Source: Chrysophaeum taylorii (lineage: Eukaryota > Sar > Pelagophyceae > Pelagomonadales > Pelagomonadaceae). Taken from it: DNA of 64,000 nt. Both the position numbers and the translations under genes were made by a program. Location: NCBI GenBank assembly GCA_029834535.1, contig JAQMWT010000585.1, positions 17,409-81,408 on the forward strand, written 5' to 3'. This document shows, in pieces, positions 1 through 25,644 of this stretch. Position 1 is the stretch's first letter; every line of letters starts with the position of its first letter. The notes beneath the pieces are model-generated. The model was not told the DNA's origin. It was given only the letters and a program-made list of their open reading frames with translations, and did no database searches.

Positions 1-1180
1 ACTCGTTCACCCTTGACTTTAATCTTCTTGCGTCCGTATACGACTTGGGTTCGATAAAAACAGATCCGATCGTGGGGGTAGTCCACGACGGCTCCTAAAA
101 CTCGGATATCGCGCCCTCCCAACAGGAAAAGATAATTGGTGTCGGCCACAATAGCGACAATGGGGGCGGCGATGTCGTCGGCGAGAGCGACCCGGATCGC
201 GATCCAACGATAGATCGTAGTCGTATTCAACCCCGATCCGTACAGCTTGCGCTTGATCGGAAGCTCGCCTTCATCGAAAATCAACTTATCATTGGCCAAG
301 TTTCTGACCATTTCGCGGCAAATAGAAGAAACATCTGCCATTCCATCGACACCGATTGTCGTCGAGAATTTCGGTCCGTCACGATTCCTGTAGATGTGAC
401 AGGCCATAAACGTAAGAGTACCCGTATCCAAACAACTGAGGGTAACCAAATCATCTTCGATAGTCTTGTCATCTCGCGGCGTTAACGAAGTGTGAGAACA
501 TTGGGCTCTGCCTCGCTCGTCGCCGGGGTTGGGCATCGACACCGCGGCTTGAGTTCTCGTATCATCTGTTGTCGGCGTCATCGACGCAGCGCTCGCGGCA
601 GCCTCTTTATCTGGTGGCTTCCGCTCTTCCTCCGTGACAATCTCGGAGGGAATCAATGCTGGTAGGGGATCCCGGTCTTCGGCGTTCTCGGAAGCAAAGG
701 ACCTCTCCCATAACTCGTACATTTCGTCTTTCCAGAATGCATCCGTAGATTCATTCGTCATCGGTTGATCATCACAGTCGGTACCGATCGGTTCCATGTC
801 GGCTGCGGCTTCGATTCCGTAGCTGAGCGGTCGTTCTGGTGGCTTCCTTAGCAAGAAGTTCCGAGTTCTCGTCCACCAATCCTGCAGGTTCCACGTCGGC
901 TCCTCTTCGTCCCAATCGAGAACGCTGCTAATCTTCTTCTTACATCCATCTTCTTCGGTCGGGTTCGGCTCGACTCCGGCAACGCCGTCACTGCTATCTT
1001 CTTCTGGCGGTGACAAACCCAGGCATTGCTCGATTGGATAAGCGTCCCTTTCATCTTTGGACCGTGCACGTAGCTTCTCGTCCGACGCATTATGCGATTT
1101 CGTATCCTTTTCTTCCGGCGGTGTATCCGTGGCTCGATCCGTCGTAACTGAAATCGTTTCAGGGGGGGTCCGCAGGAAAA
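1..1180 (-). CDS. Gypsy-0 pol N-terminus: acidic leader and retropepsin-like protease (partial)
   Basis: An open frame runs from about 1180 to the window edge and continues beyond it. The first 200 or so residues are acidic and low complexity. They match the leader of Gypsy-2 (31004-31768), including the shared KPPDK and LTPRD/LSPRD blocks. The last 150 residues read as an aspartic protease: a strand ending in VDGMADVSSI, where DTGA-type proteases have their catalytic Asp, and later FLLGGRDIRVLGAVVDY, the usual second half of a retropepsin fold. The canonical DTG is replaced by DGM. A DTGT lies about 27 residues upstream and could be an alternative site. The family assignment is inferred from these motifs and from its place before DNMT and RT in the sister copies. 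Confidence 0.65.
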
Positions 1181-1257
1181 GATGGCGTCGTCCCCGACGT
1201 CAACTCTATCGTAAGATCGTCGTCTGCATCACTCGCGATGGTCATCGTCTCATCTGG

Positions 1258-2103
1258 TTAATGATCATCCGTGCTATCGCTGCAGAAACCCATGTCTGGC
1301 TCACTGCCGGTCCGGTCGCCAAAGGTCATCTCGGGGGGATCCAAAGATAGGCCGATAGCGCCGAGGGCTTCCTCGTCAAAACCAAACGGTGGGTCGTCCT
1401 TGGACGACTCGTCAAGTAACGTAATCGAGGACACTGGTTCACAAGGCGCGGCTTCGTCGTCTTCCGAGTCCGAATCGCCTTCCCAGTATCGTGGAGCTTC
1501 GAGTTCATCGCTCGATTCGCCGGGTTCATCGCCCGACATTTCCTCGTAAATCCGTGTCAAAGACTGACGATCGGTCAGCACTTCGTTGGGTGGCTCGTCC
1601 GGCGGGGGGCGAGCACGATCTTCGAATGCGCCCGCGGCAAAGGCGTCGGCTGCGTCGTCGGAGCGGGTGTCCGTGTCCGGGTACATCATCACTCCTAATG
1701 GTAACTGTTGACCGCAAGGGGTCGTAAACGCGAACGTGGCTGACGAATGTCCCGAATCTTCTCGGTAACGTCCACCATCCGAATCGCGGTCGCGAGATCT
1801 TCGTCGCCGGCGTCGGCGCGAATGTCTGCTAGGGCTCCGGCTTTCTTTCCGTCGGCGCGAACGTGAGCTGTGACTGCGGCTCTTGTCGCGGCGTCGGGGG
1901 CTCCGGCTGTCTCGACGGCCCGGTCGTGTCGAAGACGATCGGCCGTGTCCATCTTTCAAGTGCTTCACGGAATCCATGACCGTGGTCAGCTGCGTGCCCA
2001 TGTCGTTGAGCCTGCTCTGAATATCATGAGCGGCGCTCGAACCGAGAGTGGCATTCGAACTGCCATCATCGCGCGACTGGGTATCCTTCTTCTGCTCTCC
2101 CAT
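1258..2103 (-). CDS. RS-rich (SR-like) protein encoded by Gypsy-0
   Basis: An intact 281-codon ORF with an ATG at 2103, lying between gag and protease. Residues 1-50 are polar with spaced hydrophobics. Residues about 55-110 form a dense Arg/Ser tract with many SRSRR, RSPS and RRRRSRDRD units, as in the RS domains of splicing factors. The remaining 170 residues are acidic (Asp, Glu, Ser) and contain no known fold that I recognise. A homologue starts at 32465 in Gypsy-2, so the ORF belongs to the element. RS domains normally mediate phospho-regulated protein-RNA contacts in the nucleus. A role in nuclear retention, RNA packaging or splicing evasion is only inference. It could also be a basic nucleocapsid substitute. 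Confidence 0.7.
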   Translation of the reverse strand: MGEQKKDTQSRDDGSSNATLGSSAAHDIQSRLNDMGTQLTTVMDSVKHLKDGHGRSSSTRPGRRDSRSPRRRDKSRSHSSRSRRRKESRSPSRHSRRRRRRRSRDRDSDGGRYREDSGHSSATFAFTTPCGQQLPLGVMMYPDTDTRSDDAADAFAAGAFEDRARPPPDEPPNEVLTDRQSLTRIYEEMSGDEPGESSDELEAPRYWEGDSDSEDDEAAPCEPVSSITLLDESSKDDPPFGFDEEALGAIGLSLDPPEMTFGDRTGSEPDMGFCSDSTDDH

Positions 2104-2148
2104 CTGCCTCGAGAGGGAGGTTTCTTATCGTTTTCGATGTACTTGCAC

Positions 2149-2238
2149 TAACTAACTAACTAACTTCAGACCTCTCCCGAGCATGGGAGCCAAGCCGAGT
2201 CCGGAATCACGGGCCTGTAGACGAGGGGCATACCGAAA
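2149..2238 (-). repeat. SINE-like insertion (5'-truncated) in gag, with 13-bp target duplication
   Basis: The insert is the 3' end of the dispersed family whose tail reads GGCTCCCATGCTCGG...(TTAG)n, here in minus orientation and beginning with (CTAA)n. It is flanked by perfect copies of GATGTACTTGCAC at 2136-2148 and 2239-2251. It matches the subfamily seen at 47738 and 57254 (shared GAATCACGGGCCTGTAGACG). It interrupts gag, so the last residues and stop of the gag frame are insert-derived. Confidence 0.85.
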
Positions 2239-3879
2239 GATGTACTTGCACATCGCCACATAATACTCATCGGGCCCGCGGTTGCAAATAACGCGGCTCC
2301 CAGGTTCATCCTTGTCGTGGGTCGAGAGGAAAAACCCACAATTCTTGCATGTGAGCTCGTACCACTTTTTCGGAATCTCTTCTAATCGCAGCGATTCGAA
2401 TTTCGTCTTCTTATCTTTCGGTCCCGTGGCTAGTGCTCGGCCTCCGCGTCCATGCGGCGGTTTCTGCGATTTCCCGTTCGACGGGTTCTTCGAGTTGCGG
2501 TCGTTCCGCTCTTCCAACGCGGTCGCGTAATCGTTCTCGAGCCGCGTAATCAGCGACAACGTCGACGTAAACGTGTCGTACGTAGTCGGGTGCCCGCTGC
2601 GCATGGTCCGCACGCGGGATCGTAAATCGCTGGACTCCAGCCCGCGTATCAAATAGGAAATAATCTCAACATCATTGAGGATTCGATCGGCCACAGAGCA
2701 GTAGGCCATCGCCTCGCTCTGGAATTTGGTGCAATAAGTGTGCACATGGCGTTCCCCAGGTCTTTTCGGAACGGATGCCTGGATCGTACTCTGAAGTTTT
2801 CGTAGTAACTCCTCTGTCGTCATAGGCAAAGGGCAACTCGATCGGAAATATTTCAAAACCTTGATGCAGCACTCTCTGTTCAGTCGTCGCAGTCGTCGTA
2901 CCACTGAACCGTACTCGTCATCGTCGACGTCCCGACGTAAATAAAAAGACGCCGGATGGTCGAGATCCTTGCACTCTTCTTTGTATTTCTTCAAGTGCTC
3001 TCGGAAAATCGGTGCGACCGTGTCGCGTAAGCTTACCGGCAGTAAATACCGCAGCTTTTCCATGCTGTAATGGTCGTCGGCCAGCGTGCTCATCACGGCA
3101 TCTGCATCTAAATCGAACTGGTCCTGGTCGCGACCATCAAGAACCAATTTAAACGTTTCAGTCTTCAATCCGGAGGTTGATCGCCGATCCTTACTGCGAT
3201 CATGCTTAGCTAACGCGCTGGCGAACCGGTCAGTGAAGTCCATGAGGAACTTCTGGTCGTTGACCTTCCCGTCGTCTCGCGTCTCCTCCTTAGTCTCGTA
3301 ATCATCGTCGTCGTAGCGCGGTTTCCTAACTTTAGCGCGTGTTCGCGTAGGCGGCGGCTCTTCCTCGGGTCGGGACCCCGGACTGCTCGCTCGCCTCGAG
3401 CGACTCGTACGTAATTCGTCCCTCTCCCGGGTTAGTAGCCGTACTTGTTCGTGGAGTTCCTCCGTCAGAGCGTTTGCTTTCCGCAGTTGCTCTCGCATAT
3501 CGTCCAGCTCCTTCTGGCGTAGCCGTTCAAGCCGCTTGTTTTCTTCTTCTATCTGCTGTAGAATGCTCTCTTGCGCGCGTTCGTTTTCTCGGCGTAACTC
3601 GCGTAGATGAGCCTCGAAAATCTCGTTCATGATCGGTGCTTCGGTGTTTCGTGCACGTGTCGACTGAGCTGTCGGTTGCCTCGCCTGCGGCGCTTCCAAC
3701 TGTTCGTCGCCGTTGTAGTTCAGCTCTTCTTCATTGTCATCGTCTTCGGTAGCATGTTCATCATCATCATTATCATCAACATCGTCTTCATCATCATCGT
3801 TCCGCTCGTTCGTCCCCTCGGGACGACTTGAAGGTTCAATTTCTCGTATCTGCTCGTCAGCAGCCTCATCGTCCTCCAT
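2152..3879 (-). CDS. Gypsy-0 Gag-like polyprotein
   Basis: The first ATG of the frame is at 3879; the frame stays open to 3900 without an ATG. An acidic N-terminus rich in Asp/Glu/Asn is followed by a Glu/Arg/Leu heptad stretch (about residues 85-160) that should form a coiled coil. The middle 200 residues look like a retrotransposon Gag capsid region (YCTKFQSEAMAY and LIRGLESSDLRSRV resemble the capsid C-terminal helices). A cysteine cluster, CKNCG...C, near the end may bind zinc, but there is no classical CCHC knuckle. The frame ends inside the SINE at 2149-2238, so the native C-terminus is lost. Gypsy-2 lacks this ORF. Confidence 0.7.
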   Translation of the reverse strand: MEDDEAADEQIREIEPSSRPEGTNERNDDDEDDVDDNDDDEHATEDDDNEEELNYNGDEQLEAPQARQPTAQSTRARNTEAPIMNEIFEAHLRELRRENERAQESILQQIEEENKRLERLRQKELDDMREQLRKANALTEELHEQVRLLTRERDELRTSRSRRASSPGSRPEEEPPPTRTRAKVRKPRYDDDDYETKEETRDDGKVNDQKFLMDFTDRFASALAKHDRSKDRRSTSGLKTETFKLVLDGRDQDQFDLDADAVMSTLADDHYSMEKLRYLLPVSLRDTVAPIFREHLKKYKEECKDLDHPASFYLRRDVDDDEYGSVVRRLRRLNRECCIKVLKYFRSSCPLPMTTEELLRKLQSTIQASVPKRPGERHVHTYCTKFQSEAMAYCSVADRILNDVEIISYLIRGLESSDLRSRVRTMRSGHPTTYDTFTSTLSLITRLENDYATALEERNDRNSKNPSNGKSQKPPHGRGGRALATGPKDKKTKFESLRLEEIPKKWYELTCKNCGFFLSTHDKDEPGSRVICNRGPDEYYVAMCKYIFRYAPRLQARDSGLGLAPMLGRGLKLVS

Positions 3880-4315
3880 GTCGGCTTCGGCTCGCTCCAA
3901 TCGGCCGAAGTCTGAACGGGTCCAAAGTGGTTGAGTCGTCGTCGTTTTCGTATCCTGCGACTCTGGGACTTCTACTCGTCCCCGTCACGCGTAATTCGTC
4001 GCCGGGTGCGTCTTGTACCGACTGATCTATCAGATACGGCGGGCGGCAGAATTCGTCTCTGCCCGGCAATCAATGACTCGGCGAGTTGCGATCTCACTCC
4101 GCTCGCCTGCGGCAGCTGTACCCGGGTTGCGCGTCGGCTCGAACCGATCCGCGCGTCGTCACCTCCGACGACTAACGTATCCGGCCGGGGATCTTTCCCA
4201 CGGCGATGGTCCCTCTAGAACTCTTCGTCGGCGCGCTTGATCAGGGCGCGCACGGCTTGTCCGGACCGTGTAGAGAATGCAAGATGCACTCGTCCGCTGC
4301 GACCGATATGGTCGC

Positions 4316-4339: not shown

Positions 4340-4750
4340 TGTGGCGTCAGGGAAATTATGCCTACCTGGCTCACCTTCGAATCTAGGCTCGCCGCTCACG
4401 TCCGCGCTCTTGGTCGAGTCACTGGACGAGGAAGGCCGTTCGCTCGCCACACAACCACAAACAACTTCCGTGCCTGGTCCTCACAACTTGAGGATCGGCT
4501 GTTGCTTTATGATTAAGATACTCTCGAATCACAGAAATCAGGATGACGCGTGTCACGGAAAAGGAAGATGATGTCATAGAGAAAACTGACTTATCAGAAC
4601 GAATCACAGAAATCAGGGTGACACATGTCACGGAAAAGGAAGATGATGTCATAGAGAAAACTGACTTTATCAGAACGGAGTAGGGTGCCCCTGATAAGGG
4701 GGGGGGGTTCAAGGAGGGGTAAGCCTTAGGAGGCGGGAGTTTCCGCCACA
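4340..4750 (-). repeat. Gypsy LTR (5' LTR of Gypsy-0)
   Basis: 411 bp with terminal inverted repeat TGTGGCG/CGCCACA. Homologous LTRs lie at 32502-32817 and, as a solo copy, at 52813-53150. They share CTCCTAAGGCTTACCCC near the start and CTCAAGTTGTGAGG in the middle. Its low side abuts a tRNA-like primer site; its high side abuts decaying pol sequence of Gypsy-1 with no polypurine tract. Confidence 0.85.
4526..4676 (-). repeat. 75-bp tandem duplication inside the gypsy LTR
   Basis: Two near-identical units, 4526-4600 and 4601-4676, each with the block GAAGATGATGTCATAGAGAA and a palindrome-like TGACRCRTGTCA. The solo LTR at 52813 has a single unit. Duplicated upstream units in LTRs often hold enhancer or transcription-factor sites. 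That role here is inference. Confidence 0.8.
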
Positions 4751-5080
4751 AGTGATACTGTTGTTGACCTTGGACTTGTCGGTGAAACTGCGACCGTCCA
4801 CGTCCTTGTATTTCGGCTTAAGCTTGCGAGTAGAGAGATGTGAGGTAGGCTTGTAGTAAGATACCTTGTCAAGGGGACCGAGATCGGCATAAAAATGCAG
4901 AGCGACTCGATCATTCACAAAATCATAGGGCTCATAAACTTCAGCCACGTAAATCTTCTTGCGCCAATCGGACCGTTTGCCCTCGGGGATCCGAAAGACA
5001 ACGAACTTACCGTGCTTGAAATCGTCCCGGGAGGTCTCCTTGGGTTTAGGCACGGCTCGATCAACCACCGGAGAAACCAT
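4751..5080 (-). CDS. Gypsy-1 pol C-terminal domain after integrase (possible chromatin-reader-like module)
   Basis: About 110 residues continue after the integrase in a shifted frame. The core reads GKFVVFRIPEGKRSDWRKK then IYVAEVYEPYDF, VALHFYADLG and SYYKPTSHL. The alternating strands with aromatic positions resemble small beta-barrel reader folds (BAH, Tudor or chromo type), which some gypsy chromoviruses carry after integrase to choose integration sites. I cannot assign a family, and the resemblance is weak. The frame runs into the LTR of Gypsy-0, so the true stop is lost. Confidence 0.4.
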
Positions 5081-6767
5081 CACAGGTGATCTGACTGACA
5101 TGAACACAGCGGCGTTCAGGAGGAGAATCAAGAGACTCAACCCTGTAAGTGACCGGAGACAAGCGTTCCACAATAATGAATGGACCGCGCCATTCCGGTC
5201 GAAGCTTATTCTGAAGAAAAGGGATGTAGAGCAAAACATGCGATCCTTCTTCATATTCCACATCGACATGATCCGCATTGTAAGCGAGACGTTGTTTACG
5301 AAGAGCCTTCTCGCGAGCTTCATTGACCGTAGCGGTGTAGAATTTCAACCTCTCGCGAGTCTCTGCCACAACATCGGAGCGAGTTTTCGGCAGGCGGCGG
5401 ACATCAAGATCCATGATCGTATAATCTGTCGGCAATAGAGGCTGCCGGTTGAGACGAAGCATGAAGGGTGAGATCTGAGTCCCCGGAATGAACTTACGAT
5501 TGTAGCAAAAAGCAATGTACTCCGCGAACTCGGGCCAGTCCGTGATCTTGCGGTCTTGAAGACATGCACGGAGGAAAGCCTTGATAAAGCGGTTGACCCT
5601 TTCCGCAGGATTAGCCTGAGCTTGATACGGAATCGTGGTACTATACCGAACATTGGAGAGATGACGAAACTCTTCCATCAATTTGTTGACGAACTCTTTC
5701 CCGTTGTCGGTGCGAATCCTCTGAGGTAGATAACTTTTGAGTAATATATTCGCGACAAAAGACTCGAGGATCGACTCAGCAGTCTTATGGTGCAGTACGT
5801 CAAGAATCAAGAAATGAGAAAATGGATCAAAAAAGATGATCAGATACGTCTCGGGACCGGCACTAGGCAAAGGTCCGAACAAATCCATACAAAGAACGGC
5901 GCAATCACCATCATACACAGGTTGCTGAAGAAGACCTGCTCTCTTTGGTTCAGGCGTGCGAGCTTTCTTGCACACTATACAACCAGCAATATAGGCACCC
6001 ACCTCATTAGACATGTGAGGCCACCAAAAACGTCCAAGTATCGACTGCACTGTACTTTGACGACCCATGTGAACACCATTGAGAGGTGTGTCATGGTGCA
6101 ATCGGATGATGCGCGTCCGTAAAGTCCGAGGTGCGACTATCATCGGGTGCAAGTCGGGTGCGGCACCGTAGAGGACTCCTTTCACCACTTGATAGCAATA
6201 ATTGGCTCCGTACCGACGAAGAGAGTGGCCTTGAGCCATGCGATAACGCATGTCCTCGCAAGTAGCATCAGTGATCTGCTCTTTGGCTATCTCTTCCAAA
6301 GTCTCTTTGGCTATCACTTCCAAAGTCAAATTATCCGGAATCTTGTCGATGTACTCTTGGTGATCATCGGCATCACGGAAAATACTAGGTTGGGTCTGCA
6401 GACGTTTCTTCTGACGTTGTCTCGTAGCGTGAGACGTGGCCAATTGCATCGGATCGTCGCGACCATCTTCTTCTTCCTCCGCAGGCAACTCAGTCGTAAC
6501 AAACGACAGAATGACATGGCACCCAGGTAAAGGTACTCCTTTATCATCAACAGGCCGAGGAAGTTCTTGGCACACTAAGTACGCGTGGTTCAAGGGTTCA
6601 CCAAACTCATCCGTCTCGATGACATGATCGATAGGATTGCGAGAGAGACAGTCAGGGATACTCAATCCCGGCAACTTCTTTGGTTTGTAACCCAATTCAG
6701 GATTAAAATTGGCGAGCCGCATCGCCCATCGAGCCAACTGCCCAGACGAGTGCGTCGCCTTTCGCAA
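5061..6767 (-). CDS. Gypsy-1 integrase (with end of RNase H)
   Basis: A long intact frame. The first 45 residues finish RNase H (LARWAMRL...PDCLSRNPID, the typical gypsy RNase H end). A linker leads to an HHCC zinc-binding module (LHHDTPLNGVHMG ... CIVCKKA). The DDE core follows with the first Asp in CMDLFGPLP, the second in RTDNGKEF and the Glu in NPAERVNRF. The C-terminal part has HVLLYIP and PEWRGPFIIVERLSP, the usual GPY/F-like module of gypsy integrases. The enzyme would insert the cDNA into host DNA. All catalytic residues are present, so this is the best preserved domain of the copy. Confidence 0.9.
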   Translation of the reverse strand: MRKATHSSGQLARWAMRLANFNPELGYKPKKLPGLSIPDCLSRNPIDHVIETDEFGEPLNHAYLVCQELPRPVDDKGVPLPGCHVILSFVTTELPAEEEEDGRDDPMQLATSHATRQRQKKRLQTQPSIFRDADDHQEYIDKIPDNLTLEVIAKETLEEIAKEQITDATCEDMRYRMAQGHSLRRYGANYCYQVVKGVLYGAAPDLHPMIVAPRTLRTRIIRLHHDTPLNGVHMGRQSTVQSILGRFWWPHMSNEVGAYIAGCIVCKKARTPEPKRAGLLQQPVYDGDCAVLCMDLFGPLPSAGPETYLIIFFDPFSHFLILDVLHHKTAESILESFVANILLKSYLPQRIRTDNGKEFVNKLMEEFRHLSNVRYSTTIPYQAQANPAERVNRFIKAFLRACLQDRKITDWPEFAEYIAFCYNRKFIPGTQISPFMLRLNRQPLLPTDYTIMDLDVRRLPKTRSDVVAETRERLKFYTATVNEAREKALRKQRLAYNADHVDVEYEEGSHVLLYIPFLQNKLRPEWRGPFIIVERLSPVTYRVESLDSPPERRCVHVSQITCDGFSGG

Positions 6768-7416
6768 AAAACGTCAAATTGCGATGATCCGTCTCAAGGA
6801 TCGTCTTGTGACCTTCGATATAAGAGCGAAAATGCTCAAGAGAAAGTATAACTGCCAGTAGCTCTAGCCGGCGGGGCTCATAGTTCCGCATCTCTTTCGG
6901 CGCAGCCCGGCTCCAATACTCAATCACTCGTTCCTCTCGTGTCACCTTGCCGGTGTCGTCCTTGACTTCCACGAGCTGAAAAAGATACGCGCCCAGACCA
7001 TCCTTGGAAGCATCCGGGCGGATCTGAAAAGGAAGATCGTAGTCAGAATGATAAACTCCGCGGGAGTCCACAAAACCTTCGATGATCGTGTCCCATGCCT
7101 TTTGGCACTCAGGCGTCCACTCAAACTTAACACCTTCAAGACACAATCGCCTCAGCGGCTCCACAATCTTCGAATAATTCTTCACATATCGGCGGCAGTA
7201 GTTGCTCTTGCGGATGAAGGATCGAATCCGAGTCTTCGGAGACGTGTTCGGCAGTGTACCGGGAATCGGCATCTGCTGCAACGCTTCTAACGTCTTTGGA
7301 TTCGGCTTCAAGCCTTTCGGAGTCGAAATTTGTCCCAGAAACTCGATTTCACCTATGATGAGGTGGAACTTAGAAGTTCGTCCACTATATCCTCGCTGCA
7401 CTGAATTGCACAGCAC
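6703..7416 (-). CDS. Gypsy-1 RT thumb/connection and RNase H
   Basis: It starts with the RT end (EIEFLGQISTPKGL...NPKTLEALQQMP, the gypsy block before the thumb), continues with YCRRYVKNYSKIVEPL and LCLEGVKFEWTPECQKAWD, and then RNase H: PFQIRPDASKDGLGAYLF with the first catalytic Asp, ERRLELL-type RRLELLAVILSLEHFRSYIEG, and LETDHRNLTF. The frame is lost just before the integrase ORF by a small indel near 6760 (FFAKGDALVWA against the conserved FLRKA). Confidence 0.85.
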   Translation of the reverse strand: MLCNSVQRGYSGRTSKFHLIIGEIEFLGQISTPKGLKPNPKTLEALQQMPIPGTLPNTSPKTRIRSFIRKSNYCRRYVKNYSKIVEPLRRLCLEGVKFEWTPECQKAWDTIIEGFVDSRGVYHSDYDLPFQIRPDASKDGLGAYLFQLVEVKDDTGKVTREERVIEYWSRAAPKEMRNYEPRRLELLAVILSLEHFRSYIEGHKTILETDHRNLTFFAKGDALVWAVGSMGDAARQF

Positions 7417-7422
7417 TTCAAT

Positions 7423-8368
7423 CTAGACTTGTAGATGACGGTGGAGTTCCTCCGATCCCATCATAATATCGTCGACAAACGCGACCAAGTCCATATACAT
7501 CCATGTTGGCAGATCGCTAGCCATCTGCTTACAGAAGAGAGCTCCTGCTGTTTTCACTCCCAGAGGCAAGCGCAAGAAACTATGTGCTCCAAGTGGGCTA
7601 ACCATCGTGACGGCGTCCTGTACGGCGGCGTCCAAACGCCGGTTGTGGTAACCCCATCGAATATCAATGCACGTCCGCCAACGGCGCATGGCAAGAAAAG
7701 CCAACGCATCATCTTGACGAATATTCGGCCAAGTGTCATTGACCAGCTGATCGTTGAGCTGACGCAAGTCAACTGCAGCACGAAAAGCATTCGACGTTCC
7801 GACCTCTGCTCCCTTATTAGGCAGCAATAGTACAGGAAATCCCCACGGAAAATTCGCCGGTCAGATGATTTCATCGCGACACCACTCGGTGATCTGCTTT
7901 CTGAGACACTCAAGCTTTGCTGGCGTCAACCTGTAAGGTGTCATCTTAATCGGTCGTGGGTTTGCGTCTTTAAATCGTAGAGAAACCGGCGGCGAGTCCA
8001 CGGGTCTCATAATCGGGTCAAAAAAGGCCCACGCGTATTGCACGCAGTGGCTTAACATCATCTTCGCATCCTCATCCAGATGCGGGTTGTCGGGGATTCC
8101 CAGTTCTCGAACAACCTTCTCGACTTCTGCTTTCGTCGGAGTTTCGACTTTCATCGCCTGATTTTCCTTGACGTGCTCCGGAGTCTTGCGGTAACGGTGC
8201 ACCGTCCGCGTCGCGCGGCGCATCCTCCCATGGCACATGGAACTTTTCTTCGTATTTGAACCTCGCCTCAGGGTGGCTCTTATTGATCTTTTCACCTTTG
8301 ACGCGCACATTCGGTTCGCTCCTTACTTTCGGCTCCTGGTCAGGTTCAGGATCCGGCGGAACGTCCAC
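7423..8368 (-). CDS. Gypsy-1 reverse transcriptase (frameshifted)
   Basis: Reading passes through three frames. 8310-7861 holds MTPYRLTPAKLECLRKQI and ends at a stop (CRDEII*) just before PANFPWGFPVLLLP. 7827-7423 carries AAVDLRQLNDQLV, CIDIRWGYH (motif A), HSFLRLPLGVKTAGALF (motif B) and AFVDDIMMGSEELHRHL (motif C, FVDD instead of YVDD). These are Ty3/gypsy RT motifs in the right order. Upstream comes the DNMT, so the pol order is protease-DNMT-RT. Gypsy-2 gives the same protein at 22267-23950. Confidence 0.85.
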
Positions 8369-8371
8369 TTT

Positions 8372-9932
8372 TTATTGTCGGGGGGAGGCAGCAGAAGAGG
8401 CATGAGCCGTCCCCGGCGCATCTGTTGGAAGCGGAAGCACAGGTACTTCTGGCGGTTTCCATTTGGTGGGATCCTGGAGATCATCTTCTGACACCCACTT
8501 AACGACACGAATACGCGTATTCAACTGCGGCACCTGTACGTGACGAAGGGTGGTGTCGGCAATTCGCAAATACTGCTCAGAGGATCGATCTGTCGGGCGC
8601 AACGCGGTCGGCAGGACGTCGCCACTTTGGCGGAAACCTCTGGTCACGGAGTTGTGCAGATCGACTGCTAAAATCGCAAGAGTGTATGGAGGGACGACAG
8701 ACGCTAGGTGCTTGATCGAATATGTCTTAGACAGGCCAGCCCAATCATGGTCCATCGGCATCGTGAGCAACTCTGCCGTCATCTTGAGAGTCAAAGGCTG
8801 AGTGTCCGAGCGGTGCGGTCCCAAGCGAAGAGGAACTCGCGTAACGGTGCTAGCCGTATCTGTTGCGTCTCGAGACGAGCCTAGATTATTCAGCTGGAGC
8901 AGGTGGCGTTCATCTGCGCAACCTAATGCTGCAGCGAATTTCTGTTGCATGTTCGCACATGTCTTCTGAGCCTCTTGCAGGTGCAGTGGGTGACTAGAGA
9001 CCAACAACCGCACGCGAGATCTCATCAAAAGTGGGCGTGATGTCGTGAAAATTCTCGACGTACACGTAAGGGTATAAGCTCGCTATATAAGAAATAATGG
9101 ACGCCACCTGTTCAATCAGCCACATCATGAAGCCAGCCATTTTGCACAGCTTCATCGTCCAATTAGTGGCCGTAGCTCCCCTGCCAACATCTCTGGACGT
9201 CAAGTTGCAGAGTGCTGAATGAACGCAGGGCGGAGACGCGACACACATCGACGATGACCATTCCGATTCAGGCAAATAAGCCTTGATCAATCGGAGGGTC
9301 GTCTCATACCGTCCGCAGAACGTGTGCTGAACCACAGGTATCTTCGGAAAATTCTTCTGATGAATCTTGTTGGCAGCTGCTGAAGAGTCAAGAGCAAGGA
9401 CGACTCGAAACGACGTCCAGCACAACTCATTCGCTCGTTGCAGCCCTAAAGTACTGCCTCCGGCGCCGCTGAATAGCATCACAACCTTGCGATACGTGAT
9501 CGTCAGCCATTGGACCTTTTCAAATCCTCGGCGAATCTCGCCTTTTGTAGCCTCTCGGCACTTCATTTCCTCCTCGTCGGTTCGTCGGTCGAAAGCGTCG
9601 TTACCGAGCGATTCTTGAAGAGAGTTCCTATCCTTATCGGCAGAAGGAGCCGCCTTCTGCACCGAGCTCAAAAGCATCGGTTCGGGAACCGCGTCGCCTT
9701 GAGTCAGATGGCTTGCGACCGAAACAGTCAACGATAGATTGGCCTTGTCATATTCGGCTCCACAGTCCTTCGTTAATTCGTCGACCGTCGCAACGTTCAG
9801 CTCGTCATCAAAACACACAATATCGCCCAAAGCGAGAACTTCGCCTTGAGTAATCACAGTCGGCACATCCTGGGTAGAGGAGATCGCCACTCGAGCGGCG
9901 AACTTGTCGTGATCTTCGGGAGAAGAACACAT
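8372..9932 (-). CDS. Gypsy-encoded C5 cytosine DNA methyltransferase (DNMT)
   Basis: The first frame (9932-8994, 312 aa) has an acidic 145-residue N-terminus and then the DNMT core: motif I LFSGAGGSTLGLQRA (about residues 153-167), the acidic cofactor residue in VVLALDSSAAANKI, motif IV ASPPCVHSA with the catalytic Cys at residue 236, and motif VI YVENFHD (Glu-Asn). The second frame (9028-8372) continues with QPLTLKMTAELLTMPMDHDW (like motif IX) and LASVVPPYTLAIL (like motif X). One frameshift near 9000-9030 separates the halves. The enzyme would transfer methyl from S-adenosylmethionine to cytosine C5. It sits between protease and RT in pol. Known parallel: gypsy DNMTs in a charophyte. It may be inactive here because of the frameshift. 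Confidence 0.85.
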
Positions 9933-10827
9933 TCCATCGAATACCCCAAGTTGCTCGTATCAGAGGATGTAGCAACGAAAACCTGCCCGGTTTCCATGGG
10001 CTCTGAAAGAGTGACTGGCACGCACGCGTGTAAGTGCGCCCAGGCTCGACCTTCATCGTGCGCGCGGTATAGGCTACCACTTCATGGGCATCGCTGTTCG
10101 AGCATTGAGAAGGCGTATCTGTCGGGACTCCCCAAGTCGTCGAAGCCGCCGCTCGTTTTGGCGGTGGACGCTGGAGGTCTTCAATCTTGCACAAGCGAGC
10201 GTAAACGCGGTCCTCGACCGTGCTCAGGCTCTTCTGCATCGCATGGTGCTGTTGCCCGTATACTTGAACTACCACGGGGTTGCGCTCATCATAAGTTGAT
10301 CTGAACGTCAAAACCGGAGAATCGACTCGTCGATCCTGCACCCTTAACTTCTTGCGCCCATAGGCGACTTGTGTGTGGAGAAACGCAATGCGACTTCGCG
10401 GGTAGTCCACTATGGCTCCCAGCACCCGAATATCGCGCGCTCCCAGCAGAAATAAATGATTAGTATCGGCCATAATGGCAACCACTGGGACTGCCACGTC
10501 GTCCGCGAGCGCAATTCGCAATGCGACCCATTTGTGGATAGTCGTCTTATTCAATCCCGACCCGTACAGGGTGCGCTCGACTGGGAGATCGCCTCGGTCG
10601 AGGATTGTATTATCCTTCGCCAGTTTGTCGACCATCCCACGACAAATATAGGAGAGACATCCGCCATTCCACCAACGCCTAAAGTCGTTGCGAACTTCGG
10701 CCCGTCTCGTCGTCTGCAAATATGTCCAACTATGAACGTAAGTGTGCCAGGGTCCGGACAACCGATGGTGATGAGGTCTTGCTCGATCTTTTCCCCGTCG
10801 CGCGGCGAAAGGGCAGTATGATGGCAT
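9808..10827 (-). CDS. Gypsy-1 protease region
   Basis: It corresponds to the protease of Gypsy-0 and Gypsy-2: LYGSGLNKTTIHKWVALRIAL, HLFLLGARDIRVLGAIVDY, then a 100-residue linker (AHEVVAYTARTMKVEPG). The motif that holds the catalytic Asp in the sisters (VDGMADVS) reads VGGMADVS in another frame here, so the Asp is lost. A small insertion near 10030 shifts the frame before the DNMT, and the last 60 residues of this ORF are out of frame. It is a decayed domain. Confidence 0.65.
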   Translation of the reverse strand: MPSYCPFAARRGKDRARPHHHRLSGPWHTYVHSWTYLQTTRRAEVRNDFRRWWNGGCLSYICRGMVDKLAKDNTILDRGDLPVERTLYGSGLNKTTIHKWVALRIALADDVAVPVVAIMADTNHLFLLGARDIRVLGAIVDYPRSRIAFLHTQVAYGRKKLRVQDRRVDSPVLTFRSTYDERNPVVVQVYGQQHHAMQKSLSTVEDRVYARLCKIEDLQRPPPKRAAASTTWGVPTDTPSQCSNSDAHEVVAYTARTMKVEPGRTYTRACQSLFQSPWKPGRFSLLHPLIRATWGIRWNVFFSRRSRQVRRSSGDLLYPGCADCDYSRRSSRFGRYCVF

Positions 10828-11127
10828 GTCCCTCCGGATTCGCGTCGCCCGGCATCTGCATCGTCACCGCTGCCATCTCGGGCGTCCCGCGTCTCGCCTC
10901 TGAACCTACATTGGCGTCCGCCGCACTCTCTTTGTCTGGTGGCTCTCTTTTTCCATCGCGACCTCGGGTGGGCTCGGTGCCTCGGCTGCTTCCTCATTCC
11001 CAAGTTTCGCTGGCAACAAATTCTGACAATTCTCAATCGGAGGCACATATACTTACTCCTTCGTTTCCTCGGACGATACTCGCAATTTCTCGTCCATCAA
11101 ATTTTGCATTCCCGTCCACTCTCTTAG

Positions 11128-12833: not shown

Positions 12834-13029
12834 TAGAGAACAGTAATTTCAACTGTGTTACCCTTCAGCAGAGCGTGGGAACAGTGGTAGTCTGTCCTCT
12901 AATCTGCCTCCTAAACGAGGACAGCCGGTGTGAATAACACAGCGTTTTCTTAAATCAAAAGGTGGCAAAGTTAAGGGGACTAACCCTAGAATAGGGGGTA
13001 CTAACCCTAATTCAGATTCCCTATCTCTA
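12834..13029 (-). repeat. 3' LTR of Copia-A
   Basis: 196 bp. On the plus strand it begins TAGAGAACAG and ends TATCTCTA, so the ends are TAGAGA/TCTCTA rather than TG/CA. It is nearly identical to 22066-22261. Just inside lies CGCCCTCACAGATTGAACTC, which on the element strand is a purine-rich GAGGGCG tract, the likely plus-strand primer. Confidence 0.9.
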
Positions 13030-13071
13030 CGCCCTCACAGATTGAACTCGGTGAGCGAAATCTGGATCAAA

Positions 13072-13524
13072 CTAAGCACGAAGCGTCTTACCATCGACAA
13101 GAACACAGAGAGTGTTCTGGACAGAGTCGTACGGTGGAAGAGTAGCTGAAAGAGTAAGCTGATGAGATGGTGGTGAGGAGGAGGTTGAGTGAACACCGTA
13201 GGCGTTTTTGAACTTGCGAAATAAATTGCGTGGTAGGAGCTTCGAAAAATGATCAGCGACCTGGTAGTGAGTAGGACACCAGAGAGGTCTAATGATCGAA
13301 TTAGCTTGGTAGTCACGAATGCGAAATTCTCGTAAATTGATATGACGAGAAGGAGCACTGACTTTAGGGTGATTAGCGACATGTAATGCGCTAGCGTGAT
13401 CAATAAGCAGGGGAATAGCGTGAGCTTGATCACACGAACACAGATAAGGGTGAGAGGAGAAAGGCCTGTAAAACCAGTGACATTCATCGGCGGCTGCGCT
13501 GGCGGCGATGAGTTCAGCTTCCAA
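13072..13524 (-). CDS. Copia-A RNase H
   Basis: A typical copia RNase H: EAELIAASAAADECHWFYR at the start (catalytic Glu region), LLIDHASALHVANHPK (Asp motif), SRHINLREFRIRDYQA and YQVADHFSKLLPRNLF (the AD-hFTK-like end). The frame is intact from 13524 to the stop at 13072. It ends in TLCVLVDGKTLRA, whose last residues recur in the Copia-B remnant at 56278-56350. It would remove template RNA during cDNA synthesis. Confidence 0.85.
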   Translation of the reverse strand: MEAELIAASAAADECHWFYRPFSSHPYLCSCDQAHAIPLLIDHASALHVANHPKVSAPSRHINLREFRIRDYQANSIIRPLWCPTHYQVADHFSKLLPRNLFRKFKNAYGVHSTSSSPPSHQLTLSATLPPYDSVQNTLCVLVDGKTLRA

Positions 13525-13702
13525 GGTGCTTTTGGCCGTAAGATTTTGTCGTTTGTGCTAGACCAAAATACGAGACTGCCAAAGACGAAGATACATGCAC
13601 CAGAGTTGGATCGCAAGCGAGGGTCGTAACGATCAGCAAAACTTGCATCAGTAAAACAAATAATGGGTGAACGAAGGTGATGCAGTTCGGGATAGCAGTT
13701 GA

Positions 13703-14910
13703 TCAGATGCTGAATAAAGGGGGTAGTAGAGGGGCTGTCGGATGCAGAATAAAGGGGGTAATAGAGGGGCTGTCGGATGAATAGTCGAGTGAATCATTCG
13801 GAGTACCCTTTAAGTAGCGAAGTAAAACATATAAGTGCAGAAGGTGGGTCTGATCAGGGTTGTGCATGCCCTTGCAGCATTTGTTGCACAAAGTGGTGAT
13901 ATCAGGCCGACATGTGACAGATAAGTAAATACTAGTGCCACAGTAGTGAGGAAAATTGTGGCGTAATACGTCTAAGGTAGGAGCCAAGTCTGAGAGAAGT
14001 TTAGCAGAAGGTTTTTGAATGAGGATGTCCGAATAGGGGACGTCCATACTATGTAGGTTGAGCTTATGCTCAGCAAGCATCTTGGTGATCTTCGCTGCTA
14101 CATTCATAGTGAGATGACCAGCGGAGACATTGTAGTGGACATCGACACCAAGAGAGGATCTGATGTTGTCATGCCATGTACCTTTGCCATATCCCTTCTC
14201 CATAGCAGTGCGAAGAGATGTAATTTTGGCAGTGTTGGTACCAGTGATCAATAGGTCATCGACTGAAACGGATAGTAGAACCCTTTTGTTGATAGATCGA
14301 TCCCAATTGATATAGAGGCAAGTGTCGACTTGTGAGCGGTCGAACTCATGTTGTCGAAGAAACGAGTCGAGTTTGATGTTCCACAACAAAGCTGACTGTT
14401 TGAGGCCATATAGAGCCTTGACGAGTCGGAGAGCGAGCTTCGACTCTGGATGGTTCTTCTGTATCTGCAGGATAAGATTTTGCGAGACACGTATTCCTCG
14501 AGGGAAGTCGATCATACTGGGCGATCGAGTGCCGATTGGATGAATGCCTGAGGAGTGTCCGCGTGCGCGACCGGGTGCTTGTGCTTCACAGCGATGGCGA
14601 GCAGTAGCCGGTTGCTGGCGAGCATTGCGGTTGGGGAGGATGTGGCTTAAAAGTCAATGCCTACACGTGCCAAGAAACCTCGGGCGGCTATACGAGCCTT
14701 ATGGCGGTCTGGAGTGCCGTCAGCAAAATACTCAATCTTCAGCACGAGTTTCGTAGAGATAGACGACCGGTCTGGCGTTAAAGGTTCAAGTTTAATGACA
14801 CCGCTGGAGGATAAGCCTTCAATTTCTTTACGAATCGAAGCAATGTGCTTTAGCTTATCTTCTTCGCCGAGTCCTTTGAGTTCGACAATCTTTTATGCGC
14901 ATAGACAATA
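13703..14910 (-). CDS. Copia-A reverse transcriptase
   Basis: The N-terminal part (about 14910-14640) reads SISTKLVLKIEYFADGTPDR, HKARIAARGFLARVGIDF, which corresponds to the copia wVfkiK...KARLVa.Gf block. A stop follows GIDF. The ORF 14515-13703 then has LVKALYGLKQSALLWNIKLD, DTCLYINWD and LSVSVDDLLITGTN (motif C, SVDD). These are Ty1/copia RT signatures. A stop and a frame change between the two parts show decay. The RNase H follows about 180 bp downstream. Confidence 0.85.
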
Positions 14911-15581
14911 TCTTCAGCGGTCACGAGCTGTAACACGGCATGGTCGATGTGCTGCAAGTCATAATCCGTGACTTCTTGGAGAATGTCTTGATTCGGATCA
15001 CTTTGACTTAGGAAGAGGTGTCCGAGTTCACCAGAATCATGCATGAAGGCATGCCTGTGACGAGAAGCTAAGTGGTAGTGCTGATGCGCTGAGATGTCCC
15101 AAAAAAGGGAGGAGCCCACACAACAGAATTCTTGATTCCATTGACGCGCATAATACTCTGCCGGTGACAGTTCGTCGTGGCACACATAGTTCTCGAGAAC
15201 AGAACTGTCGATGTCGAGGTGGTCAACCAATACAGATGAGTGGTACGGCTTCCTTGGGAAGTCTACGTGCAAGAGTTCTGCGTTGGTTTCTCTCTGCAAA
15301 TCCAGTGCGGTGCCGCCCATGATACCATAGTCGTGTGTGGTACTTGCTAGGCGACATCCTTGCGGGACATCATTTGGCGGCTTAGCATCTCTTCGAATGT
15401 TGAGATCAGATGCGATGCTGGCGGCGTGGCCCTGGTGCAGAGCGCTGACACTGATGAGGAACATCAATGTGTTGGACATGTTGGCTGCGGCGAGAGCCGT
15501 GGCTTGCTCCTGCTGGTATTTCCAATTGCTACCATACTCTGAGGCGATAGCGTCTGGTGAAGAGTTTTCCATCGTCGACAC
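14911..15581 (-). CDS. Copia-A pol linker between integrase and RT
   Basis: An open frame of about 220 residues that joins integrase to RT (IASEYGSNWKYQQEQATALA at the start, LVTAEDIVYAHKRLS at the end). I recognise no domain; it is His- and Asp-rich. In Copia-B the reading breaks off at the same IASEYG point. Probably an interdomain linker of the polyprotein. 15529-15581 overlaps the integrase frame, which points to a one-base shift. Confidence 0.5.
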
Positions 15582-17270
15582 GTTTCACGATATAGAGTTG
15601 ATCCTTAGGGATGCGAAATCCACGTTCGTCCTTGAGATCTGCCTTTAGCATATCGCTCTGGTTGCGATGATCACGAGAACTGGGGTAAAACCTGGATCGT
15701 CGAGAACAACCTTTATCTTTTCGTTTGGGCATCGGAATGCTACCATCCGGCGGGGGTGGCCGGTCGAGGAACGAAAAATCATGTTCAGGTGTCTCGTCGC
15801 TGACGGGACTTGAATCAGCAGCGGGAGTTGGATCCGGTTCTTTGTGTTCGTCGTCATCGTTCGGTTTATCATCCTGCTCGCCATCGTGAGTCTCGCCCTC
15901 ATTTTGCGATTCCTGTCTAACTTCCGCCATTTGCTGTTCGCTTATAGCTGGTAGCGGGTCCTCTTGCCGTGCCTCTGTTAGGATCTGTGCGAGTGCTTTG
16001 ATCCGTTCGATCTCCTTGTTGCGGTTGACTGGTATGTCTGCGTCAACATGAAAGTCGTTAGAGGTGATGATTTTCCCATATCGCCCCTGATGTACAAGCA
16101 AGATGGAGCTGTGAACATCACGGATCAATCGGTCCGTGCCGGGGAGGTTCGGGCGATAGTTGATACTGTGAAAGTAAGAGGCGGAGACGCTGGAGGGTCC
16201 CAGCTTGTGACTTTGAGGGTAGACGAAAGTGACAGGTTCGCCAAAGGGAAAGAGCTTCAAGAGCGGTGCCATGGGTGACATGATACGCCGGGGAACGGTG
16301 CGTGCCATGTTTGTGCGCGAGGGCAGTCCATGAGAGCGCTGGTTGTCGGCTTGGATCTTATGCAGTAGAGCAAATGGATGATAATACTGGGCGGCAATGG
16401 ACTTTCCTTCGATGCGTACACTGCGAAGATTGAGGAGGCGAACTACAGTGCCTCGGGTGTTTTCCTCTATGATGTTTTCCGCAAAATTCCGTTGGTGGAG
16501 GTGGCGACCAAGGATTTGAAACTGGATGCCAAGTTGCACCCTGAGCGGGTGGGGAGCTTCAGAGCGGAAAGTCGAGAATGCATCAGACGAGATGATTTTC
16601 ACATTGACATTGAATTCGACCTTAATCACATTGACCACATAGAGGATGCCGGCCAGAACATCCTGCGCGTCTAGTTTCCGCAGGAAATAGACCCACTTGT
16701 GTGCTAAGATAATACACACGAAATGCATGATGTAACGAAATCCACCGTAGCACTTGCTGATGCTCGGGTATGATACATCCATGTGGAGGTGTTGGCCAGG
16801 AGCATAGGCCAGTTCATCAGGTGACCAGGAAGTGTTCTTGTGACGGAAGCTGACATGCGATTGACAGCTCTTGCATTCGCTGCAGTCTTGCAGATACCGA
16901 TCATCACCTGGGCGAAGATTCGTTACATTAGCGGCAGTCGTTCGGCGAAGAATCTCGGGTTGCTGATGATGGATGCGGTGCCAGCGAGTGGCCAGAAGCA
17001 CTCTTTTAGCGTGCTGACTTGTGCCGGGCTTGTGCAAGGGGCGCAGTGCGGCGGTCGACGCGCTAGGGGGGCTGGGTCGCTTGTCAACTCGGACTTTGGC
17101 AACGGTTGCCTCGGCAAGAAGCGTCTCGAGGTTTTTCGATTTGCTTGGTTTGCGGATCGCATCATGGTGAGCTTCTGCAACAGCATTGAAGAGGGAGGTG
17201 AGGTTGAGGTCCTCCTCTACTAAGAGACGGCTGGAGATGCTCATGAAGAAGTCTGCAACCTGGGTGATGT
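15529..17270 (-). CDS. Copia-A integrase with acidic C-terminal extension
   Basis: A GAG-pre-integrase/HHCC-like module (RWHRIHHQQPEILRR then CSECKSCQSH) leads to the catalytic core: HLHMDVSYPS (first Asp), IISSDAFSTF (second Asp) and FAENIIEENTRG (Glu), then LRSVRIEGKSIAAQYYHPFA. The classical DNGxEF around the second Asp has become SDAFSTF. The last 200 residues are rich in Asp, Glu and Pro with a run of PPPPDGSIPMPKRK. The frame is open from the DNMT end through this region, as expected for one polyprotein. Confidence 0.75.
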
Positions 17271-19122
17271 CACCTGGGCTGGGGATGCCATTGCGTATTG
17301 TTGCCCATTCGATGTGAAAGTTCACGTGGTGGTGCGATTCGTGGAGTGCGAGAACAGCGCTGTACTTTGCCTGCAGCATATTGTGCGGGACGGCGTTGGC
17401 CAGTGCCCTATACGCGAAGTACGGCGGGTGCTCTTGGAACAGACGGGGCAGTTCCGGGTCCGAGTGGTGTCCAAACTTCGCGATTTCGTTGAGGGTCGTA
17501 TAGCGGATGTGGTCTGGAGAGATCAGCAGCAAGGCGTTGGAGTAGCTCGTGTTGGTTGGGTACGAGCCAGTGGCCGAGTGACACTTGGTGCTTTTCTGAA
17601 GCGTGTCTCCGATGTGGCCGACATAGTCCGCGTAAGTGGGACGTGCTTTGGACATAATGAGTCCCTTGGGGTCATCGAGAGTAATTCGCCCTCGTGAGTC
17701 GCGGCAAAGCCAGGATGCGAACGATTCATGTAGTGGACCCAAGTGGACGGGCGCGAGCAGCTGTGAGCGGCGGCCAAGGAGGTGGTGTAGGCGACGACCA
17801 GAAAGGCGGTGCCCTTGGGAACATCCAGGGAAAAGGCGTGCGTTGGGGAGAAGACTGCGGGTTGATGGGAACAGTCCAATATCTGAGGGGGCCTGGAATG
17901 TAGGGTGAGGGAGGCGCGCGGGAAGTAGCCACATGCGACGGCAGTAGCGGCGGTGCCGGTGATGGCTCCATCCTAATCGTAAGCACATTGAGACTCTGCG
18001 GCATGAAAACAGCGGAGGGTGTTCCATGTGGCGAGAGTGGGGTGTTGCGACAAATGGTTGTGCAGGAATGTGAAAACCAGAAGGTGGGAAATGGACGCCA
18101 TGGTGGCGTAGGGGGTGCCGTCGGCGTCTAGACCGAGATCCGCGAAGGGCTTGGTGAAGCGTGCGAGCATTTGGCAGACGCGGGCATTCTCGGAAAGCGA
18201 GAGTTTCGAGGCGCTGGCGGGCTTGTAGGAGTAGGTGGCCTTGTGCTGGTAGTAGTCCAAGGCGGAGCGGGGCACTGTACCACGAAGGGCGGGTTTGGCG
18301 ATCCAGAGATCGTCATGGATGGTGTGACTGGGGTCCAGGAGAGGTACCATGCTCGGAGGCGAGGTAAACCAAGTAGAAGCGGTTTTCTCGAGGTTGTAGC
18401 CGGTGAGCGGGTGTCGGGCATACACAGCGAGATAGCGTGTCTTGCTGATGACGTCACCAAAAGCAGAGGCATTGTAGACACCGGAGTGTCGGAAGTAGCC
18501 TAAGCGCTGATAACCTTTTGCGAGTTGAGCATACTCGTGATGAGTTCGGGGGTTGGGAGGTACGTTCTCGACAATGGCGTAGGTCGGGAGCGTGCAACGA
18601 ACAAAACGGATTTGTTCTTGGACATAAAGGTCGGCGTGACCGGAGTGGCTTAGTCGTCGTATTCTTGCATTAACTCAGATGTTGACAGGGCAATGTAAAA
18701 ACTGCCAAGTCGAATGGAGGTAGTCGTATTTTGCCGGTTTGGAGTGCGGCATTGAGCTTCCTTAGGTCCGCATAGTGCTGAGCGTGCGGAAAGAGTTGTT
18801 GCGCACGGGTGCGCATAATATGGTTAATTTCGCAGGTGACCACGACAGTAAGGCGTTTGTCGAATCGTTTGCGAAAAGTGTCGAAACCTTCTTGGTGAAG
18901 TCCACCTGCAATAATGGCTGTTTTGAGCGGAGGGGGTTGTGCTTGCACAGAGAGGTCTGCGGAGCCATTAAAGGCGTAGTGGACGACAGTATGTGGGAGG
19001 TTGAGCATTTCGGTTAAAAACAGGGAATGATTCTGTAGCTTGGCGAAATCAAGCGTGTGCGATTTAGAGCGTGTCTTGGCGACATGCTGTGTGATGTGTG
19101 CAATCTCATCCTTGAGTGACAT
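17271..19122 (-). CDS. Copia-encoded C5 cytosine DNA methyltransferase (DNMT)
   Basis: Motifs are in the canonical order over about 600 residues. 19122-18670: motif I TAIIAGGLHQEGF, cofactor motif VVVTCEINHIM, DLRKL and motif IV FTLPCQHLS (catalytic Cys). About 18575: motif VI AIVENVPPNP. About 18440: motif VIII SKTRYLAVYARHP. Then a variable 330-residue stretch in the position of the target recognition domain, and motif IX IRYTTLNEIAKFG with motif X ALANAVPHNML near 17370-17510. Frame changes occur after motif IV (a stop right after QHLS) and within the variable part near 17690 and 18000. It lies between protease and integrase of the pol polyprotein. Copia DNMTs are known in the dinoflagellate Symbiodinium. 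Confidence 0.8.
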
Positions 19123-19128
19123 TCGTTT

Positions 19129-19698: not shown

Positions 19699-19749
19699 AA
19701 AGAAAATCTGCGACTCTAGGTGAGATGGTTGATGATGTCGGGAAATTCG

Positions 19750-21980: not shown

Positions 21981-22065
21981 TTTGCTTGGGTTCAGGAACG
22001 TCAGTGAGCGGGACTCGTCTGGTAATCCTGAGGCTTTGCTGATACCGGGACTGGTGCCCAATACA

Positions 22066-22261
22066 TAGAGAACAGTAATTTCAACTGTGTTACCCTTCAG
22101 CAGAGCGTGAGAACAGTGGTAGTCTGTCCTCGAATCTGTCTCCTAAACGAGGACAGCCGGTGTGAATAACACAGCGTTTTCTTAAATCAAAAGGTGGCAA
22201 AGTTAAGGGAACTAACCATAGAATAGTGGGTACTAACTCTAATTCAGATTTTATATCTCTA
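22066..22261 (-). repeat. 5' LTR of Copia-A
   Basis: 196 bp, plus-strand ends TAGAGAAC and ATATCTCTA, followed by the target duplicate CTCAT. Inside the element the minus strand goes TTGGGCACCAGTCCCGGTAT, a candidate primer site that recurs as GGGCACCAGTCCGG after the Copia-B LTR. Confidence 0.9.
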
Positions 22262-22266
22262 CTCAT

Positions 22267-23112: not shown

Positions 23113-23165
23113 ATCGCTGCCATCTGCTTACAGAAAAGAGCTCCTACGGTTTTCACTCCCAGAGG

Positions 23166-25636: not shown

Positions 25637-25644
25637 GCCGTCGA

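Follow-up and report, generated by a model that had tools for sequence, protein, structure and literature searches.

Retrotransposons with captured DNA methyltransferases (DNMTs) were described by de Mendoza et al. (2018; PMC5890265). In the available text of that report, the DNMT-bearing elements of Symbiodinium are LINE and DIRS retrotransposons, its Copia elements are devoid of a DNMT, and the element of the charophyte Klebsormidium is a Gypsy retrotransposon with a Dnmt3. The initial annotation of the DNA studied here attributed the dinoflagellate captures to copia elements, which disagrees with the text of the original. A 2025 paper (PMC12344493), in the part available to us, also cites de Mendoza et al. 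for 'LTR Copia and DIRS', contrary to the original. Apart from this disputed citation, we found no published copia element with a C5 methyltransferase (MTase) in the literature searched, which excludes most subscription papers and all preprints. The accessible text of a 2019 opinion paper (PMC6338049) refers to Ty3/Gypsy and DIRS elements that encode DAM and DCM, including those of stramenopiles, and does not distinguish between the two kinds of enzyme. The available passages of PMC9998398 and PMC3145265, which treat stramenopile DNMTs, name no retrotransposon-borne enzyme from a pelagophyte, and within the same literature we found no published C5-MTase retrotransposon in pelagophytes.

Chrysophaeum taylorii is a pelagophyte whose genome paper gives 71 Mbp and 702 contigs; in its main text, as available to us, no word starting with 'transpos' or 'repeat' occurs (PMC10366177). 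The sequence that we searched amounts to 70.8 Mb in 697 contigs, and the window, i.e. the whole stretch of 64,000 nucleotides analysed (C585:17409-81408), carries three Ty3/gypsy copies, called A, B and C, as well as Ty1/copia copies. The presence of a captured C5-MTase domain in gypsy elements is real, and the finding is richer than first claimed, with several subfamilies, many genomic places and a second, copia-borne capture. The mechanism initially proposed, in which the element methylates its own cDNA, needs revision. A stramenopile is thereby added to the hosts of DNMT-capturing retrotransposons, described from dinoflagellates and one charophyte.

In copy A, the strings FSGAGG, ALD, SPPC, VENF and VVPP from which the domain had been recognised are all found on the minus strand in the order claimed (Table 1), in two reading frames because the frame breaks near 9027-9049. 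The gypsy-type pol was also correctly identified: RNase H and integrase exceed their Pfam cut-offs, the RT-RNase H-integrase order is confirmed, and the RT, slightly under its cut-off in copy A (26.7 bits vs 29.6), is clear in the uninterrupted copy at locus L009. The protease reported to flank the domain is a by-eye reading, with no Pfam protease match in any of the eight window ORFs scanned, nor in the 3067-aa frame of L009. With that frame as the query, tblastn did not find the gag or 5' part of copy A. As for membership of the DNA_methylase family, the window ORF alone falls short (PF00145, E 5e-4, 19.9 bits, for a curated cut-off of 22 bits), whereas the domains of 14/14 uninterrupted copies match the profile. 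The MTase of copy B (L031:8229-9368) and its 3' LTR (L031:4085-4355) both lie outside the window.

Table 1. Features of the window (positions counted from its first nucleotide).
Feature	Position	Strand	Basis or remark
Ty3/gypsy copy A, coding remains, frame broken	4748..10951	-	tblastn of the L009 3067-aa frame, residues 962-3018 in pieces
C5-MTase-derived domain of copy A, over two frames	8684..9575, limits approximate	-	Pfam, string positions
Motif I, FSGAGG	9473-9456	-	26/26 aligned rows
ALD	9395-9387	-	string position
Motif IV, SPPC	9236-9225	-	26/26 aligned rows
VENF	9059-9048	-	private to copy A; Val for Glu in 25/25 others
Motif X-like VVPPY	8684..8698 (VVPP 8698-8687)	-	profile support for IX-X weak, 0/100 shuffles as good
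Reverse transcriptase of copy A	7423..7860	-	RVT_1, E 5.5e-6, under curated cut-off
RNase H of copy A	6703..7422	-	RT_RNaseH_2, E 1.5e-21
Integrase of copy A	5061..6773	-	H2C2, E 1.6e-15; rve, E 6.2e-10
Single LTR between copies A and B (3' LTR of A, 5' LTR of B)	4340..4750	-	82-90% to L009 LTR, two pieces
Gag and N-terminal part of gypsy copy B	1..3984	-	alignment, tblastn; continues into L031
Ty3/gypsy copy C	22261..26442, resumes 12833-12762 past copia insertion	-	tblastn
Decayed MTase of gypsy copy C	about 24210-25408	-	reads YVVNF at the initially proposed motif VI
Ty1/copia element inserted into gypsy copy C	12834..22261	-	LTR comparison
C5 MTase of inserted copia (PCQ, ENV), frame interrupted	17988..19095	-	alignment
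Integrase and RVT_2-type RT region of inserted copia	14006..17151	-	alignment to L024
Second copia copy	49644..55944	+	tblastn/alignment
Decayed MTase of second copia copy, ENV kept, PCQ lost	51980-53440	+	alignment
Lone gypsy-family LTR within second copia MTase	52813..53150	+	94% to L009 LTR

Uninterrupted copies are present in the same genome. L009 (C5:520000-529999) has a single uninterrupted Gag-Pol frame of 3067 aa comprising DNA_methylase, RT, RNase H and integrase, in which the Pfam MTase match (residues 1446-1501) lies upstream of the other three; another place in the genome has a frame of 3063 aa. Together with the PF00145 matches of the 14 domains, the L009 frame shows that this Ty3/gypsy family bears, upstream of RT, a domain derived from a C5 MTase. 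The L009 element is 10.3 kb long overall, with LTRs of 336 bp that have TG...CA ends and are 100% identical, which we read as a sign of recent movement. In this copy, the only one examined in that respect, the flanks differ and show no target-site duplication, which recombination could explain. Past the integrase, the L009 frame has a C-terminal extension (residues about 2900-3000) whose sole Pfam match is a weak p58_C at its start.

The domain recurs in many other copies. By tblastn, the window ORF gave 124 copies scored among 956 candidates, and a domain of the second subfamily gave 113 scored among 1091. The union of the two lists, into which 122/124 rows of the former were entered, comprises 173 distinct MTase places in two subfamilies, possible haplotype duplicates (e.g. 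C10/C297) included. A decayed fragment just outside the window, L031:2876-3115 (C585:10285-10524), represents a divergent gypsy-type MTase. It matches 150 scored places among 519 candidates, 137 of which, itself included, are at least 52% identical to it; some of these places lie within open frames as long as 2129 aa. Seven of the 13 remaining rows correspond to places already in the two subfamilies, at 39-51% identity, and the 136 more distant fragments (the 137 without the query itself) therefore represent further subfamilies.

An MTase place is located 295-1090 bp upstream of RT at 58/101 scored RT places, and four more were found by further comparison, which leaves 39/101 without a demonstrated MTase. 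We had considered MTase-less sister elements, on the basis of 43/101 RT places without a listed MTase, but as four of these 43 apparent cases proved to carry one, we do not claim any MTase-less element. An RT frame of 1233 aa is common to the gypsy copies on C331, C388, C486, C122 and C14; in the first four the MTase is in a separate frame, which suggests a shared break or a frameshift point between MTase and RT. Outside this genome, no relative of the Gag-Pol region was found among 1624 candidate proteins (only those 0.55-1.75 times its length being eligible), the viral contigs searched with the gypsy-domain and copia-MTase alignments gave no confirmed match, and the phage search with the gypsy domain gave one match, with an E value of 0.3.

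Sampled loci provided 16 domain-length matches, 14 of which were used, L031 being omitted for its stops and L005 as a repeat of L004. All 14 match PF00145 (E values up to 1, best 1.5e-6; 25.6 bits for the L009 domain), and each also matches two families of DNA methyltransferases in PHROGs (best 4.8e-8). We compared them with a mixed C5 profile built from nine phage, five DNMT2 and one DNMT5-like sequences. Columns 30-126 (motifs I-IV) gave a profile-profile probability of 97.5%, which 0/100 column shuffles equalled. For columns 255-325 (IX-X) the probability was only 5.8%, yet the match scored above 100/100 shuffles and lay at the right place in the profile. The region V-VIII (columns 126-239, with the QxRxR motif VIII and the target-recognition domain) could not be told from shuffles, 14/100 of which did as well. 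All copies sampled thus keep the SAM-binding half and the Cys motif (I-IV) unchanged, whereas IX-X is weak, and V-VIII and the target-recognition domain are unrecognisable. A single-sequence fold of the window fragment had a mean pLDDT of 38.9.

Among PDB sequences, the only MTases retrieved by hmmsearch at E values of 10 or less were DNMT2 chains (E 0.33-0.35, not significant), and only about 75 columns of the domain align with the DNMT classes. A similarity ranking placed DNMT2-search proteins at the top for the gypsy domain, but phage MTases for the copia MTase, which is only a hint because the comparison set consisted of 120 DNMT2-search and nine phage proteins. Chance resemblance, i.e. 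a region not derived from an MTase at all, would fit the fact that only I-IV score strongly and that the PDB sequence match is not significant (E 0.33), but it is hardly credible, being contradicted by the 14/14 matches in both Pfam and PHROGs and by the 0/100 shuffles. On the strength of these profile matches, the gypsy domain is to be considered a C5 methyltransferase by descent. Its capture looks like a separate event, as had been suggested as a possibility, the host belonging to a different class from those described and the DNMT2 chains being the only, non-significant, MTase hits among PDB sequences.

In C5 MTases, the Glu of the motif VI ENV is a catalytic residue. We aligned 26 rows of the gypsy domain, namely window copy A and 25 copies from two subfamilies; L001 (copy A itself), L005, L029, which is partial, and copy C were left out. 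FSGAGG (motif I) and SPPC (with the motif IV Cys) are present in 26/26 rows. VENF, which had been taken for motif VI, did not withstand this comparison: at that position the 25 other copies have Val for Glu, reading YVVNF in 24 cases and YVVNL in one. Only copy A reads YVENF, and its ENV-like motif is therefore a substitution peculiar to this decayed copy. Applied to one gypsy domain from each of the two subfamilies, a block scan derived from 13 reference ENV sites found no position with a positive score for motif VI; the copia control scored 11.1-16.1 at its ENV. By eye, VVNF appears strand-like. When a global profile alignment is forced, the ENV Glu falls on E160 (LIEQ), a residue invariant in 14/14 domains that lies 38 residues past the SPPC Cys, the spacing found in several reference enzymes; LIEQ scores poorly in the block scan. 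Because neither the VVNF nor the E160 site scores, we describe motif VI as not recognisable and do not state that the Glu is lost. The gypsy family likely does not have the catalytic Glu, although E160 could be a stand-in for it.

Selection was assessed by median Nei-Gojobori dN/dS values between and within subfamilies. Between subfamilies, MTase motifs I-IV have a dN/dS of 0.071 (154/154 pairs), and the value falls to 0.048 towards the C terminus of the MTase (22/77 pairs, dS being saturated in the rest); these ratios are rough because dS is 1.4-2.6, near saturation. The values are 0.152 for the linker (25/25 pairs), 0.09 for the protease-like stretch (40/40 pairs) and 0.147 for the pre-MTase stretch (60/60 pairs), with the proviso that the automatic split placed L018 with the other subfamily in the latter two stretches, and L030 as well in the protease-like one. 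RT and integrase were set aside, as the split did not reproduce the subfamilies. Within subfamilies, the MTase has a dN/dS of 0.14-0.23. The whole domain, including the part in which motif VI is not recognisable, is under purifying selection. A functionless, decaying passenger might account for the broken state of the window copy and several others, but it is very improbable, being contradicted by between-subfamily dN/dS values of 0.05-0.07 and by the occurrence of the domain at 173 places, which belong to two subfamilies and often have an open frame. What persists under selection is thus a captured domain whose catalytic centre is unrecognisable.

The footprint expected of CpG methylation was sought in the base composition. 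The observed/expected CpG ratio ranges from 1.17 to 1.41 over 10 gypsy stretches and from 1.01 to 1.07 over seven copia stretches; it is 1.40-1.49 for the two DNMT genes of the host and 1.32-1.34 for the sequence flanking the L009 copy. TpG/CpA values are 0.91-1.03 for gypsy and 1.13-1.16 for copia stretches. None of the 10 gypsy stretches shows CpG depletion of the kind described for SymbioLINE in the available text of PMC5890265. The proposal that the element methylates its own cDNA is not supported: the motif VI on which it drew is private to a broken copy, V-VIII are undetectable, and CpG is not depleted. Canonical CpG self-methylation by the gypsy elements is possible but poorly supported. 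In the copia stretches, the relatively lower CpG and slight TpG/CpA excess resemble a mild deamination-like pattern, whose source might be the element itself, the host DNMT5 or composition.

The host encodes a DNMT5-like protein with DNA_methylase and SNF2 domains (L020:3968-10000, C621) and a DNMT2 (L019:2322-3401, C634) identical to CTAYLR_008533. Contig C697, which has psbA and psbD-type genes, also encodes the large subunit of a RuBisCO that is nearest, among solved structures, to enzymes that we take to be of the red type.

What, then, might the gypsy domain do? It is evident from the copies compared that the family acquired a C5-MTase domain upstream of RT, within one Gag-Pol frame, and kept it while diversifying. 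Beyond this, we lean slightly towards a captured and selected domain, with invariant motifs I-IV and unrecognisable V-VIII, in which catalysis or targeting would be altered or lost and which would aid replication or evasion of silencing. The domain would be released with Pol inside the particle, where it may bind SAM as well as RNA or cDNA of the element itself; its catalysis or choice of target would differ from those of canonical DNMTs, or be lost, and it might serve replication of the element or evasion of host DNMT5-type silencing. As a counterpoint, the invariant SPPC fits continued methyltransfer, and we would describe the gypsy domain as a selected descendant of C5 MTases, without a recognisable motif VI, that may or may not still transfer methyl groups.

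Alternatively, the domain might be an active 5mC methyltransferase acting on the element's cDNA, as was proposed for the Symbiodinium and Klebsormidium elements, with E160 or another residue as motif VI. The motif I and motif IV Cys invariance, the conservation and spacing of E160, and the precedent with de novo CG methylation in the available text of PMC5890265 all speak for such an enzyme. We regard it as possible but rather unlikely, given that shuffled V-VIII columns do as well as the real ones in 14/100 cases, that the block scan finds no motif VI, and that gypsy CpG values are near those of host DNMT genes and L009 flanks (1.3-1.5).

A slightly more doubtful alternative is a catalytically dead pseudo-enzyme that would bind SAM or act in regulation, for instance by serving as a decoy for the host DNMT5 or by modulating it. 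DNMT3L would be a comparable case. Motifs VI and VIII are unrecognisable although the domain is under selection, and a DNMT5-like enzyme is present in the host; yet a catalytic-type Cys is found in 26/26 rows, and the invariant Glu could partner it. Our slight preference stays with altered or lost catalysis or targeting in a selected domain. Whether such a domain is kept for DNA methylation or for another purpose are questions that are usually merged, and the gypsy family splits them.

A PF00145 search of the genome gave 57 matches. Beyond the host DNMT2 and DNMT5-like genes, it revealed one further MTase family, at L021-L030, the 10 of the 55 remaining loci that were examined. This family is borne by Ty1/copia elements, RVT_2 being detected by Pfam in all three copies scanned (L023, L024 and L028). 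In L024 the order is DNA_methylase (349-475), rve (1016-1110, E 0.006, under the cut-off) and RVT_2 (1686-1933, E 1.6e-38). A direct search for the copia MTase gave 121 matching stretches from 114 scored among 666 candidates. PCQ and ENV are invariant in 9/9 aligned copies, all nine of which match PF00145 (best 3.3e-10); decayed copies such as the plus-strand one of the window are without PCQ. Motifs III-VIII gave a probability of 96.2%, with 0/100 shuffles as good. The copia MTase is divergent too, because its motifs I-II (11/100 shuffles as good) and the region from the target-recognition domain to motif X (21/100) are unrecognisable. Among copies, its dN/dS is 0.13-0.145, vs 0.087-0.089 for integrase and RT. 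No relative was found elsewhere among 7998 proteins scored. The copia MTase is a better candidate than the gypsy domain for actual 5mC formation.

In the window, the copia element inserted into gypsy copy C has LTRs (12834-13030 and 22066-22261) that are 94.9% identical, and CTCAT flanks it on both sides, which by eye reads as a 5-bp target duplication. The window also contains a sequence related to the gypsy Gag region but belonging to a different family of elements (30992-32155, minus strand, 33% identical) and a relative of the copia RT (63625-63981, plus strand, 43% identical).

In a profile-profile comparison, the gypsy and copia MTases gave 0.8%; they are unrelated at this level, and two captures, by Ty3/gypsy and Ty1/copia elements of a single genome, are therefore favoured. 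It is tempting to go further and to imagine that the gypsy domain is a selected DNMT3L-like pseudo-enzyme that disturbs or redirects host DNMT5 silencing, and that the copia MTase is an independent, catalytically plausible capture. We consider this combination improbable, but if true it would mean that methylating and anti-methylating retrotransposon strategies coexist within one genome. As C. taylorii has been cultured in the laboratory for the genome work (PMC10366177, available text), its methylome and both MTase domains are directly testable.

The closest described system is KnitGypsy-Dnmt3 of Klebsormidium nitens, which, in the available text of PMC5890265, likewise has a C5 MTase in a Gypsy Pol polyprotein, several copies and a signature of purifying selection. 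It differs in that its domain is of Dnmt3 type with conserved key residues, in a charophyte element with DIRS-like repeats, whereas the C. taylorii gypsy domain is unclassified, has no recognisable motif VI and belongs to a stramenopile element with ordinary LTRs in the L009 copy. As far as the same text goes, SymbioLINE-Dnmt and SymbioDIRS-Dnmt3 also are captured DNMTs in retrotransposons of high copy number; unlike the C. taylorii elements, they are LINE and DIRS elements with conserved key residues, and SymbioLINE is CpG-depleted. With DNMT2 and the other C5 methyltransferases of PF00145, the gypsy domain shares motifs I-IV and, weakly, IX-X, without recognisable V-VIII or target-recognition domain. 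Finally, the two C. taylorii families are alike in being LTR elements with an MTase, in the same genome and nested in the window, but the copia MTase is unrelated, precedes the integrase and retains PCQ and ENV in all nine aligned copies.
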